Both the position numbers and the translations under genes were made by a program. The notes under the pieces are model-generated. The model searched no databases. It worked only from the letters and a program-made list of their open reading frames with translations, and was not told where the DNA came from. Below are positions 18,815 through 23,363 of a stretch of 64,000 bases of DNA, one piece after another. The number at the start of each line of letters is the position of its first letter. Position 1 is the stretch's first letter. Source of the DNA: Sphingomicrobium sp. (lineage in GTDB: Bacteria > Pseudomonadota > Alphaproteobacteria > Sphingomonadales > Sphingomonadaceae); contig DATCMI010000001.1 of assembly GCA_036563485.1 (NCBI GenBank), positions 1,117,501 to 1,181,500 on the forward strand, given 5' to 3'.

Positions 18815-19585
18815 CTACAGCGCGAGCAGCGCTTCGGCATCCAGCGCCATCACCTCGGCGATCGTCGCGTCGAGCGACTCCGAGACCAAATAGCGCGGCT
18901 GGAAAGCGTCATGTTTGTAGGCCGTGTGCACGGCTCGCGACGCGCTGAAGGGCAGCCGCTCCACCATCTCGTCCTCCAGGCTGAAATGCGCCTCGCCGAA
19001 GCTCGACGCCAGCCCGGCGCCCAGGATCTTCAGCGAACCCTCTTCGCGCCCGAGCCCGAACTCGACGCTGTGCCAGTAGAGCCGGGCGGCGCGCGCTCCC
19101 TCGCCGGCGGCGATCGCCGCCAGCCCAAGCTCGCCGATGTGCCGGGCCATGTCAGCGAACCCCGGATGAGCAAGCATCGGGATGTGGCCGAACATGTCGT
19201 GAAAGCAGTCCGGCGCCTCGAGATAGTCGAGCTGCTCGCGTTTGCGGATGAAGTTGCCGACCGGGAAGATACGCTCCGACAGCATGGCGAAGAAGGCTTC
19301 GTCCGGCACCAGACCGGGCACCGCAACGGTGCGCCACCCGGTCCTTGGCTGCAGGATGGCATTCAGCCCTTCGAGGTCGGGGACGCCTGGGTGGGATAGG
19401 CGCAGGAGGTCGATCCCCTGCAGGAATGGCGAAACGACGCGGCTGCCGAGCAGCTCCACCTGCCGGGCGAAGAGCAGGTCCCAGACCGCATGGTCTTCGC
19501 CCGTGAACGCTTCCCAGCATTGCGGAACGACATAGTCGCGCCAGTGCTCGGCCGGATTTGCCGTGTCGATCTTCTCCCGGAGCAT
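18815..19585 (-). CDS. phhA: Phenylalanine 4-monooxygenase
   Basis: 256 residues, the bacterial single-domain size. It hydroxylates L-Phe to L-Tyr with tetrahydropterin and non-haem iron. The ligands are His129 and His134 (CFHDMFGH) and Glu175 (WHSVEFGL). Start ATG at 19585 follows GGAAGGAA. The pterin-recycling dehydratase and 4-hydroxyphenylpyruvate dioxygenase are encoded 3-5 kb away, giving most of a Phe-to-homogentisate route. Immediately upstream on the same strand lie a terminator hairpin and a leader frame with three Tyr codons, so expression is probably set by attenuation in response to tyrosine. Confidence 0.96.
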   Translation of the reverse strand: MLREKIDTANPAEHWRDYVVPQCWEAFTGEDHAVWDLLFARQVELLGSRVVSPFLQGIDLLRLSHPGVPDLEGLNAILQPRTGWRTVAVPGLVPDEAFFAMLSERIFPVGNFIRKREQLDYLEAPDCFHDMFGHIPMLAHPGFADMARHIGELGLAAIAAGEGARAARLYWHSVEFGLGREEGSLKILGAGLASSFGEAHFSLEDEMVERLPFSASRAVHTAYKHDAFQPRYLVSESLDATIAEVMALDAEALLAL

Positions 19586-19608
19586 CTCAATTCCTTCCGT
19601 CGGGCAAC

Positions 19609-19637
19609 AAAAAACCCGCCGAGCTTTCGCTGGCGGG
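19609..19637 (-). terminator. Intrinsic terminator between leader frame and phhA
   Basis: On the minus strand CCCGCC-AGC, a GAAA loop and GCT-C-GGCGGG form a nine-pair stem with one bulged C, followed directly by six T (19614-19609). It ends 23 bases before phhA, so it must control read-through into phhA, or simply end the upstream flp transcript, or both. Confidence 0.85.
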
Positions 19638-19669
19638 CTGAGGTTGGTCGTCTGAAGCTTACGCGCGCG

Positions 19670-19729
19670 TCAGCCGATCCCAACCTCGTCGGGATAATAG
19701 TAGCTGCGGCAGGCGGACGTGCGCGTCAT
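19670..19729 (-). CDS. Leader peptide with a Tyr-Tyr-Tyr run
   Basis: A 20-codon frame, ATG 19729 to TGA 19670, encodes MTRTSACRSYYYPDEVGIG. Three consecutive Tyr codons (TAC TAT TAT) at positions 10-12 are improbable by chance in such a short frame. AAAGG lies six bases before the ATG. The stop lies 32 bases before the terminator stem of phhA. It is proposed as a sensing peptide rather than a functional protein; it could still be a chance frame. Confidence 0.55.
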   Translation of the reverse strand: MTRTSACRSYYYPDEVGIG

Positions 19730-19788
19730 TGCGGGCCTTTGTGCCCCGCTGCAGCTGAACCTTCAATGGCCGCGAGCCGGCGCGGTGA

Positions 19789-20071: not shown

Positions 20072-20524
20072 TCACGCTAGCGGCACGGCGGTCGTGAACT
20101 TGACGATCCGCTTGATGAAGCTCGTTTCGTAACGGCGCACGATCGCCATGCTCGCGAGCCGGTCCGTGAAGCTGTTGAAATGCTCCATGTCGGTAACCGC
20201 GACCATCAGGAGGGCGTCCATCGCACCGCTGATTTCGACGAATAGCTGCACTTCGGGAAAGGTACGGATCGTCCGCCTGAATCGGTCGGCTTCCTGCGGT
20301 TGGTGCCGGTCGAATTGGATATTCACGATAGCGGTGACCCGCTTGGCGAGGAACCGCTCGTCGAGAACGGCGACTTCCCTCGCAATGACGCCCACACGCT
20401 TCAGGCTCTGGATACGGCGAGTGACCGCTGACCGCGAAAGGCCGAGTTCCTGGCCGAGCCGATCGGCGGATCGGCTGCTGTCTTCCTGCAGCAGGGTGAG
20501 CAGAGTGCGGTCGATTTCATCCAT
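20072..20524 (-). CDS. Lrp/AsnC family transcriptional regulator
   Basis: 150 residues. The N-terminal winged HTH (MDEIDRTLLTLLQEDSSRSA, recognition helix in LSRSAVTRRIQSL) is followed by an effector-binding RAM-type domain (residues about 65-145, including FPEVQLFVEISGAMDALLMVAV). Members bind amino acids and control their metabolism. Its position upstream of phhA and near hpd suggests control of aromatic amino acid breakdown, but this is inferred from proximity only. Divergent from the subtilase gene, with 142 bases between them. Confidence 0.9.
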   Translation of the reverse strand: MDEIDRTLLTLLQEDSSRSADRLGQELGLSRSAVTRRIQSLKRVGVIAREVAVLDERFLAKRVTAIVNIQFDRHQPQEADRFRRTIRTFPEVQLFVEISGAMDALLMVAVTDMEHFNSFTDRLASMAIVRRYETSFIKRIVKFTTAVPLA

Positions 20525-20666: not shown

Positions 20667-22919
20667 ATGTACGGTCTGCTTCGTATCGCAGGAATTTGCG
20701 TTCTAACGATCGGCCTCGCCGCGTGCGGCGGAGGCGGAGGAGGAGGAGGCGTCCAGCCCATTCCGACGCCGCCCGCGCCGCCGCCGCCGCAACCACCACC
20801 ACCTCCCCCGCCTCCCGGCAGCGCGTTCAACACGCAGGAATATCAGGATTCGAAGGCTGCGGCGGCCGCAAGCGCGATTGTCGCCTATGACAATGGCGCC
20901 ACCGGAAAAGGCGTCACGGCGGCGATCATCGACGACAGTTTCGCCTCGACCATCCCCGCCTTCGCGGGCCGCGTCCATCCTGCGTCCGTCGACGTCGTGG
21001 CTTCGCGCAGCCTTGATGGCGAACACCACCATGGCACGCCGGTCGCCACCATCCTCGGAGCGTCGCGGGACAATAGCGGAATGCACGGAGTCGCTTTCGA
21101 TGCGACGCTGCTGATGCTGAGGACGGATACGCCGGGCACGTGCACCGCCTCATCGGTCACCTGCCAGTTCAACCAGTCGGACCTTGCGAAGGCCTATGAC
21201 ATCGCGGTCGCGAATGGCGCGCGTGTCATCAACATGTCGATGGCATTGTATCTGGAACCGGTCCTCATTGACGCGATCTCCCGGGCGACGGCGGCCGGCG
21301 TGGTCGTCATCCTTCCGGCCGCGAATAACGGCGATCCGGAGCCTTTCGCATCGGCGCTCATCGCGACCAAGCCAGAAGCGCACGGCGCCGTCATCATCGC
21401 CGGTGCGCTCAACGCCAGCGGGACCGCGCGGGCTACCTTCAGCAACAAGGCCGGCAGCGGCGCCAATGTTTATCTGTCGGCAGTGGGCGACGGCCTCCCC
21501 ACCTACGACCGCGACGGTTCCTTCGTCTGTTGCGGATCGGGGACCTCTTTGTCCGCGCCGGCCATTGCGGGAGCCGTCGCGCTTCTCGCTCAGGCCTTTC
21601 CGAACCTGACCGGCCAGCAGATCGTCGAGCTGCTGCTGTCGACGGCGACAGACATGGGCACTCCCGGCACCGACGCCGTTTACGGTCGCGGCAAGCTGAA
21701 CCTGACCGGGGCTTTCACGCCTCAAGGCGCGACCTCCCTGGCCGGGTCGACGGCGCCGCTGTCCCTGATCAGCAACGGCACCCTGTCGCCCGCCATGGGC
21801 GATGCGTCGGGCGAGCTTCCGGGGACGGTAATCCTGGACAGCTATAGGCGCGCGTTTCGCATGGATCTGGGCCGCACCCTTGCACCGAGCGCGCTCGACC
21901 GGCCCCTCCATGCCGCGCTTGGCGGCAGCTTTCACACCAGCTCGGCGGCGATGGGGCCGCTAGCGGTGTCCGTTACGACGGAAGCGTCAGGCCTGCCGCC
22001 GCTTGCGCAGTTACAGCTGTCGGGCAGTCAGGCGGCCAGCGCGCGCGCGATTGCCGCGACCGCGCTCGCGCGAGTGTCGCCCCGCACCGCATTTGCGTTC
22101 GGCTTTTCCGAAACGGGCCGGGCGCTGCAGCAACGGCTGGCGGGCGATGGCGGGAACCCCTTCTTGGTCGCCGGAGATGCGCTTGCCGGTAACGGCTTCC
22201 GGGGCCGGGTCGGCACCACGGTCGGCGTGCGCCACGACGTCGGACCGCTGGGGCTGACGATGACTACGGAGAGGGGCGAGGTGCGCAGCTACCGCTCGGC
22301 ACGGGACTTCGACAATTCGCAATACCGGTCGACCGCGCTCGTCGCCGACCGAAGGTTCGGCGTCCTCAAGACTCGGTTTGGCGCTGCACGGCTGACCGAG
22401 GAGGCGACGGTGCTCGGCGGCCGGTTCGGTTCCGTCTTGTCCAACGCCGGGTCGACCAGCTGGTTCGCCGATGGCGAGGCATCGCTCGACCTTGGCTCGG
22501 GCTGGGCCGCCGGCGCCGCTTACCGCCGCGGCTGGACGTCGATCGGCGCCAGCAACGCATTGGTCGCGGGCGGGCGGCTGTCGACTTCGGCTTTCGCGTT
22601 GGACGTGACCAGGACCGGCACGTTCGCCCGCGGTGACAGGATCGCATTTCGCCTCACCCAGCCGCTCCGCGTCCGTCGCGGCGGGTTCGATCTCAACCTG
22701 CCCGTCACCTATGATTATGCGTCCGGCCAGGTCGGCTATGCGCGCCGCTTCCTGAATCTCGCGCCGACCGGGCGCGAGCTCGATTATGAACTCACTTATG
22801 GAAGGCCGCTGTTCGGCGGGACCATCGCGGCCAACGCATTCCTTCGGACCGAGCCCGGCCATGTGCGCGCCATGAGCAAGGACCTCGGTGCCGCCTTGCG
22901 CTTCAACCTTCGCTATTGA
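20667..22919 (+). CDS. Subtilisin-family (S8) serine protease, lipoprotein signal and C-terminal barrel-like region
   Basis: 750 residues from ATG at 20667. Lipobox LAAC (Cys20) is followed by eight Gly and a Pro-rich linker to about residue 50. The catalytic triad is readable: Asp89 (AIIDD), His122 (HHGTPVA) and Ser294 (GTSLSAP). From about residue 420 the sequence becomes alternating polar/hydrophobic strands and ends in NLRY, as in outer membrane beta barrels, so it looks like an autotransporter protease. The combination of lipid anchor and autotransporter barrel is unusual. Its end overlaps the convergent pterin dehydratase gene by 17 bases. Confidence 0.88.
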   Translation: MYGLLRIAGICVLTIGLAACGGGGGGGGVQPIPTPPAPPPPQPPPPPPPPGSAFNTQEYQDSKAAAAASAIVAYDNGATGKGVTAAIIDDSFASTIPAFAGRVHPASVDVVASRSLDGEHHHGTPVATILGASRDNSGMHGVAFDATLLMLRTDTPGTCTASSVTCQFNQSDLAKAYDIAVANGARVINMSMALYLEPVLIDAISRATAAGVVVILPAANNGDPEPFASALIATKPEAHGAVIIAGALNASGTARATFSNKAGSGANVYLSAVGDGLPTYDRDGSFVCCGSGTSLSAPAIAGAVALLAQAFPNLTGQQIVELLLSTATDMGTPGTDAVYGRGKLNLTGAFTPQGATSLAGSTAPLSLISNGTLSPAMGDASGELPGTVILDSYRRAFRMDLGRTLAPSALDRPLHAALGGSFHTSSAAMGPLAVSVTTEASGLPPLAQLQLSGSQAASARAIAATALARVSPRTAFAFGFSETGRALQQRLAGDGGNPFLVAGDALAGNGFRGRVGTTVGVRHDVGPLGLTMTTERGEVRSYRSARDFDNSQYRSTALVADRRFGVLKTRFGAARLTEEATVLGGRFGSVLSNAGSTSWFADGEASLDLGSGWAAGAAYRRGWTSIGASNALVAGGRLSTSAFALDVTRTGTFARGDRIAFRLTQPLRVRRGGFDLNLPVTYDYASGQVGYARRFLNLAPTGRELDYELTYGRPLFGGTIAANAFLRTEPGHVRAMSKDLGAALRFNLRY

Positions 22920-23178
22920 ACCCTGACTGTGCTGCCAGACGGCCGATCGCCTCCGCCAGCGCCACATCGCGATCCGTGACGCCGCCGGCGTCATGGCTGG
23001 TCAGCCGCAAATCAACGCGGTTCCAGACACTCGTGAATTCCGGATGATGGTCGACCTTCTCCGCATGCATCGCCACGCGGGTCAGGAAGGCGAAGGCCTC
23101 AGCGAAGTCCTTGAAGGTGAACGTCCGCACCAGCGCTTTGCCACCATCTTCGACCGTCCAGCCTTCCGGCGCTTCCAT
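22903..23178 (-). CDS. phhB: 4a-hydroxytetrahydrobiopterin dehydratase
   Basis: 91 residues from ATG at 23178, which has GGAG at good spacing; an ATG two codons earlier is too close to the site. It matches the pterin-4a-carbinolamine dehydratase family: GWTVEDGGKALVRTF, then EKVDHHPEFTSVWNRVDL and TSHDAGGVT, with the His-His-Pro active site. The enzyme regenerates the pterin cofactor used by PhhA, whose gene is 3 kb away on the same strand. It is divergent from hpd, with a 185-base spacer that must hold both promoters. Confidence 0.92.
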   Translation of the reverse strand: MEAPEGWTVEDGGKALVRTFTFKDFAEAFAFLTRVAMHAEKVDHHPEFTSVWNRVDLRLTSHDAGGVTDRDVALAEAIGRLAAQSGFNSEG

Positions 23179-23363
23179 CCACATTCTCCTGTCCTACACG
23201 GGCCCTTCGGGACTAGCCCCGGTCGTGGCCCGATTCGTTTGCTCATGCGGGGCAACCGCCGAATCGTCCGCCGTCATAGCGAAGATTGGAAGATTGGCCC
23301 TCGTGCCGCTCCGACTTGAAAAGGCGGCAAGCTCGGAGCAGGTGAGCCCAAAAGGAGTCACTT

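Follow-up and report, generated by a model that had tools for sequence, protein, structure and literature searches.

The window analysed here, a stretch of 64,000 nucleotides of contig DATCMI010000001.1 from Sphingomicrobium sp., carries on its minus strand the phenylalanine 4-hydroxylase gene phhA, preceded by a short tyrosine-rich leader ORF and a U-tailed hairpin (Table 1). The encoded PhhA protein matches Biopterin_H (Pfam) at E 9.2e-42, and its matches to phenylalanine 4-monooxygenase models fall short of their equivalog cut-offs. The leader ORF runs from an ATG at 19729-19727 to a TGA at 19672-19670; the coordinates and letters given for it in an initial annotation, 19 residues with TAC TAT TAT, were verified on the minus strand, as was the distance of 23 nt between the end of the U-run and the phhA ATG at 19585. 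The hairpin described there, with nine pairs, a GAAA loop and U6, was likewise found, but its stem contains a bulged C that had gone unmentioned, the order being CCCGCCAGC, the GAAA loop, GCT, one bulged C, GGCGGG and U6. A terminator scan listed no terminator at 19637-19609, in our opinion because its stem model permits no bulge. A consensus promoter scan found none ahead of the leader, and an Rfam search of the window returned no family, T-box or riboswitch included, at gathering score. The upstream neighbour of the leader is a Flp/Fap pilin gene (PF04964, 19789-19950). A gene for a Lrp/AsnC-family regulator, which might provide a second layer of control, lies near phhA at 20072-20524 (-), and PhhB, the pterin-4a-carbinolamine dehydratase (PF01329), is encoded at 22903-23184 (-), 3.3 kb upstream of phhA.

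Table 1. Features of the phhA leader region, in positions of the window.
Feature	Positions	Strand	Description
Promoter-like stretch	19738..19766	-	Weak, by eye; TTGAAG, 17 nt, CACAAA; ends 8 nt before leader ATG
Leader ORF	19670..19729	-	19 aa + TGA, MTRTSACRSYYYPDEVGIG; frame and Tyr run conserved in relatives
Tyr codons TAC TAT TAT	19694..19702	-	10, 9 and 8 codons ahead of leader stop
Segment X, GAGGUUGG	19680..19687	-	Codons 5 to 3 before stop; partner of Y'; from folds and covariation
Segment Y', CCAACCUC	19640..19647	-	Immediately 5' of terminator; from folds and covariation
X:Y' hairpin, putative antiterminator	19640..19687	-	Predicted fold, -24.4 kcal/mol
Intrinsic terminator	19609..19637	-	9 pairs, bulged C, GAAA loop, U6
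AAGGA, likely phhA ribosome-binding site	19592..19596	-	From sequence; 3' of terminator
phhA, phenylalanine 4-hydroxylase, regulated gene	18815..19585	-	Biopterin_H and phenylalanine 4-monooxygenase models

The 133-nt transcript of this region folds better than its dinucleotide shuffles, of which 2 in 200 do as well (z -3.3). In the window the predicted X:Y' hairpin touches the terminator without sharing bases with it, and in the predicted folds the two are able to coexist at equilibrium. A local hairpin, AUCCCGAC:GUUGGGAU, is also predicted at the Tyr-proximal codons; by eye it seems restricted to PDEV-type leaders such as that of the window (L001) and absent from the PREA type.

Relatives of phhA were collected from genome contigs at 61 loci (L002-L062), the window's genome being L001. 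A short frame with YY or YYY precedes phhA at all 20 of the loci L001-L020, which comprise the window's genome and 19 Sphingomonas/Sphingomicrobium records, while a loose pattern caught a short frame at 6 of the 42 loci L021-L062 (Bacteroidota and other records), L045 and L062 having little upstream sequence. Among loci from a family search, L064-L070 have Tyr-rich leaders (L063 duplicates L005), and no Tyr-rich leader was found at L071-L091, where L084 and L085 have unrelated short frames. A covariance model built from 26 leaders, R1, matched nine of 249 Sphingomonadaceae genomes at E <1e-7, namely five of five from the window's genus and four from two other genera; the next best match stood at 2.4e-5, and many of those weaker than about 1e-5 are confined to the model's terminator end. 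In a draw from the order, 17 of 296 genomes gave an R1 match past 1e-5; 15 belong to the genus and one to genus g45, and one match is partial. The match in G412 is restricted to positions 26-96.

Within the genus, phhA is present in 65 of 71 genomes. R1, whose matches lean towards Tyr because it was trained on Tyr leaders, passes 1e-5 in 60 genomes, in 59 of which the match lies directly before phhA, and it has no match in the six genomes without phhA. Five genomes with phhA and no R1 match (G254, G258, G261, G270 and G274) have leader frames in the same place with 2, 1, 2, 1 and 2 Tyr codons, respectively. In total, a Tyr leader stands ahead of phhA in 64 of the 65 phhA-bearing genomes. The sole exception is G275, at whose two phhA copies (L167, L168) the leader finder, which on the genus phhA loci likewise required two Tyr, returned nothing; its R1 match sits before a homoserine dehydrogenase gene. 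Two genomes have two phhA copies, each with its own leader (G253, C1:306570 and 754350; G307, C1:557770 and 932492).

Some additional R1 matches in the genus lie away from phhA. Those at L155 and L156 precede homoserine dehydrogenase genes and that at L157 precedes an ORF judged unrelated by eye. At L155:300-439 (+) and L156 2193-2285 (-), Thr/Ile-rich leaders, exemplified at L156 by MTTATASMTTTIITRPRGNIG, and a U-tailed hairpin stand before genes assigned by Pfam to aspartate kinase-homoserine dehydrogenase. These leaders resemble attenuators of the thrL type.

For comparison of the phhA leaders, 17 duplicates were dropped and 69 distinct leaders kept, their starts set at a near in-frame ATG so as to give the shortest likely frames, some of which may be longer. 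Their 1702 residues include 183 Tyr, 28 Phe and 8 Trp. YY occurs in 57 leaders and YYY in 35, and only L151 and L153 have a single Tyr; the conserved Tyr leader sought by the upstream-region comparison that the initial annotation had proposed was thus found, with at least two Tyr in 67 of 69, and the hairpin is kept as well. Tyr codons fall 8, 9 and 10 codons from the stop in 57, 55 and 46 of the 183 cases, the last Tyr codon lying eight codons ahead of the stop in 53 of 69 leaders. Outside the Tyr run and the codons of X, neither the length nor the sequence of the peptides is constant. A Shine-Dalgarno-like string stands ahead of the leader in 14 of 69, and in 68 of 69 such a string, with a start codon, follows the terminator. 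Of the 69 leaders, 52 have TTCA in the 45 nt upstream, 43 of them at -28 to -34, and 41 have [GCA]ATA at -12 to -16. This pattern of TTCA, [GCA]ATA and Shine-Dalgarno strings suggests a promoter from which transcription would start at or near the leader AUG.

The pairing of X with Y', 19687-19680 with 19647-19640 in the window, had gone unreported in the initial annotation, and it is the one that covaries in leaders of the window's type. The predicted 3' end of the X:Y' hairpin overlaps the ascending arm of the terminator in 45 of 69 leaders, abuts it at 0-3 nt in the other 24, the window among them, and never lies farther away; in 6900 shuffles the corresponding fractions were 55% overlapping, 3% abutting and 23% farther, with no hairpin in 19%. 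Hairpin energies had a mean z of -1.79 against the shuffles, with a value above 0 in one leader. Some rows of the MAFFT alignment A1 are out of register at Y' by one or two columns, and covariation was therefore tested by swapping X and Y among leaders. Over all 69 leaders the mean energy of own X-Y pairs was -23.47, against -20.45 for permuted pairs (sd 0.33), a signal inflated by the relatedness of the sequences that this control permutes; own pairs also beat permuted ones in each of two subgroups, of 31 and 38 leaders. In the 24 abutting leaders, own X:Y' pairs averaged -18.15 and permuted pairs -15.20 (sd 0.58), with 0 of 5000 permutations as good; X showed no covariation with the arm in this set (570 of 5000 as good). 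In the 45 overlapping leaders, X covaries weakly with the arm (56 of 5000 as good), as does the stop region (120 of 5000), and X shows no covariation with the part before the arm (1940 of 5000).

Three marks of an attenuator are present at this locus, namely a conserved short leader ORF, a cluster of codons for the product of the enzyme and an intrinsic terminator before the gene. What computation shows is that the parts exist and are conserved, that X covaries with Y' and that the geometry from the Tyr codons through X to the stop is fixed. To judge from these comparisons, phhA is very probably controlled by a ribosome-mediated transcription attenuator that senses charged tRNA-Tyr, most likely one of the classical kind with a new target. 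The tyrosine-sensing attenuator that had been postulated at the outset for phhA is in this respect supported, the Tyr run, stop position, terminator and alternative hairpin being kept in the genus and in two other genera. In the mechanism we propose, transcription would start at the leader AUG or a few bases before it. When Tyr-tRNA is short, the ribosome would stall at the first Tyr codon with its leading edge just short of X, leaving X free to pair with Y', which lies at the terminator's foot; this would hinder the terminator and let polymerase read through into phhA. When Tyr-tRNA is ample, the ribosome would reach the stop and cover X, the terminator would form and phhA would be off.

The effect of ribosome position was modelled with an assumed footprint of 13 nt, counted from the first base of the codon in the A-site. 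A stall at the first Tyr codon sequesters half or more of the ascending arm in 32 of 69 leaders, every one of them overlapping; a ribosome at the stop does so in 2 of 69. The arm is sequestered more at the first Tyr than at the stop in 43 of the 69, including 41 of the 45 overlapping leaders; if the best Tyr position is taken instead, the figure is 59. Such behaviour follows the logic of a classical attenuator, in which stalling antiterminates and arrival at the stop terminates. In the remaining ten, which include the window's leader, the stop sequesters at least as much of the arm as any Tyr position. For a stall at the first Tyr, the sequestered share of the arm is below 0.2 in 23 of 24 abutting leaders, and 0.00 in the window. 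We take the abutting type to be the same device because its X is homologous, its Tyr-to-X distance is equal and its spacing of 0-3 nt is kept. In the window's clade, our guess is that X:Y' crowds the RNA exit channel and that merely touching the terminator is enough to block termination.

A different division of labour had been suggested by the initial annotation, in which the stop region, 19678-19665, pairs with the ascending arm as the antiterminator; X:Y' would then act in the window's clade as an anti-antiterminator, like the 1:2 hairpin of trp, and a ribosome waiting on the second Tyr codon or the third would cover X and allow the stop region to pair with the arm. Modelling offers this design some support, since covering X at the third Tyr leaves the arm sequestered in several leaders (0.70 in L008, 0.79 in L005) and among the 24 abutting leaders there are 8 in which sequestration reaches one half with a stall at the last Tyr. 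However, a stall at the first Tyr would leave X uncovered, and the homologous X of sister leaders has its partner in the arm itself. The permutations that left X:Y' without an equal gave no signal for the stop region with the arm in the abutting set (mean energy -9.78 kcal/mol for own and -10.15 kcal/mol for permuted pairs; 4732 of 5000 as good), and we reject this pairing as a conserved antiterminator in leaders of the window's type. We regard the design as unlikely.

It could also be that the hairpin simply terminates the gene upstream, which is flp in the window, that the leader frame arose by chance and that phhA has its own promoter. The flp gene does lie just upstream in the window, where a terminator behind it would be ordinary, and this was the alternative that the initial annotation itself had offered. 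It is nevertheless a poor account because a motif search found flp-like sequence upstream of only 7 of 69 leaders; a phhB-like motif was found in 10 and neither in 52, 11 of these 52 being among the 12 leaders with less than 200 nt of upstream sequence. The leader, stop and hairpin persist as the sequence upstream changes, and the distance from the U-run to the likely phhA start, 14-40 nt in 68 of 69, leaves little room for a separate promoter. We give this explanation almost no credence. Hardly more probable is a leader that acts through translation only, by coupling or as a TnaC-like stalling peptide sensing free tyrosine, with the hairpin a partial terminator that does not switch. Conserved, Tyr-rich leader frames would be expected here as well, but the variation of the peptides beyond the Tyr run and X is unlike that of a stalling peptide, the covariation of X with Y' goes against it, and the phhA ribosome-binding site lies outside the hairpins.

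The attenuator that we favour can be set beside the tyrosine supply of the genomes that carry it. Among the 249 family genomes, the dehydrogenase TyrA (PF02153) was found over the cut-off in 218 but not in any of the nine that have the leader, that of the window among them, with a model that recovered 13 and 14 of 14 control genomes in the family and genus runs; for G186 and G229, absence means that they are missing from the list of matching genomes, and the matches in G145 and G077 fall below the cut-off. Four of the 71 genus genomes exceed the cut-off for TyrA, namely G275, G259 (in two fragments), G262 and G306; the last three have the leader despite TyrA, and G275 has TyrA and no phhA leader. 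TyrA absence is not sufficient for a leader: of the 31 family genomes without TyrA over the cut-off, 22 show no R1 match below 1e-7, and no leader was found in the phhA upstream regions of the nine among them that were inspected (L079, L082, L158-L164). The leader-bearing bacteria are a small-genome group, and most of them seem to be without the usual tyrosine-making enzyme, in which case their tyrosine would derive solely from phenylalanine through PhhA.

The window's genome (G000, 99.93% complete) yielded no match for prephenate dehydratase (PF00800) or chorismate synthase (PF01264). The models for both succeed in every one of the 14 control genomes, and of the 71 genus genomes 14 have prephenate dehydratase and 48 chorismate synthase. 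The window's genome looks like an aromatic amino acid auxotroph. Since TyrA was not found either, tyrosine would come through PhhA from imported phenylalanine, and PhhA is probably its only source, as judged by the TyrA, PF00800 and PF01264 models. Six genus genomes have neither phhA nor TyrA over the cut-off (G273, G282, G285, G287, G294 and G309) and are possible tyrosine auxotrophs, three of the six assemblies being 72-86% complete. Chorismate synthase is encoded about 3-7 kb from phhA in G238:C2, G145:C5, G077:C1, G251:C2 and G257:C2, a second phhA adjoins the two-fragment TyrA at G259:C1:176464-177777, and in G275 and G313 one TGA interrupts the prephenate dehydratase match.

Bacterial phenylalanine hydroxylase is usually called catabolic, and a biosynthetic role has been proposed in Dyella, Legionella and Echinicola (PMC7311316). 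For the window's clade we put forward, as a tentative pair of claims jointly somewhat less probable than its negation, that attenuation may be steric, with X:Y' at 0-3 nt before the terminator filling the RNA exit channel, and that the switch may have arisen on the loss of TyrA (and, in the window's genome, of chorismate synthase and prephenate dehydratase too), PhhA turning biosynthetic as in animals. If true, a Tyr-starvation switch on phhA in TyrA-less genomes would be independent regulatory evidence for a tyrosine-making PhhA. The phhA leader would also add tyrosine to the specificities of leader attenuators, and its relatives would form a natural series in which the antiterminator shifts from overlapping the terminator to merely touching it.

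To our knowledge, tyrosine is a rare specificity among leader attenuators, and among the matches listed from the open-licence literature none describes an attenuator of phhA or one with Tyr codons. Among the nearest relatives in kind are two predicted motifs. The uORFC-8-2 motif of cysS in Rhodobacterales is, like the phhA leader, alphaproteobacterial, predicted by comparison and endowed with tandem codons for the sensed residue, but it has Cys codons, serves a tRNA synthetase and belongs to another order (PMC8632094). The uORFC-13-1 motif of aroF in Acholeplasma likewise has a leader and terminator in front of a gene for aromatic amino acids, but with Phe codons, a shikimate entry enzyme and a host from another phylum (PMC8632094). 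PhhR or Lrp/AsnC control of phhA, established or proposed (PMC1173090), is catabolic and exerted by a DNA-binding protein, whereas the phhA leader would act by attenuation. The Rfam family RF00513 (Trp_leader) aligns weakly over the leader end, hairpin and terminator of the window, scoring 15.3 bits (E 0.93) where the gathering score is 41, which is no match. The phhA leader is also like the trp-type attenuators, E. coli trpL and S. meliloti trpLE(G), which share a short leader with a run of codons for the end product, alternative hairpins, a U-tailed terminator and a biosynthetic target. The S. meliloti attenuator RNA starts with the trpL ATG (PMC7298713), much like the start that we predict for the phhA leader. 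In contrast to the trp type, the phhA leader has Tyr codons and a phenylalanine hydroxylase as its target, no separate conserved 1:2 hairpin was found in it, and its putative antiterminator segment sits inside the last codons of the leader.
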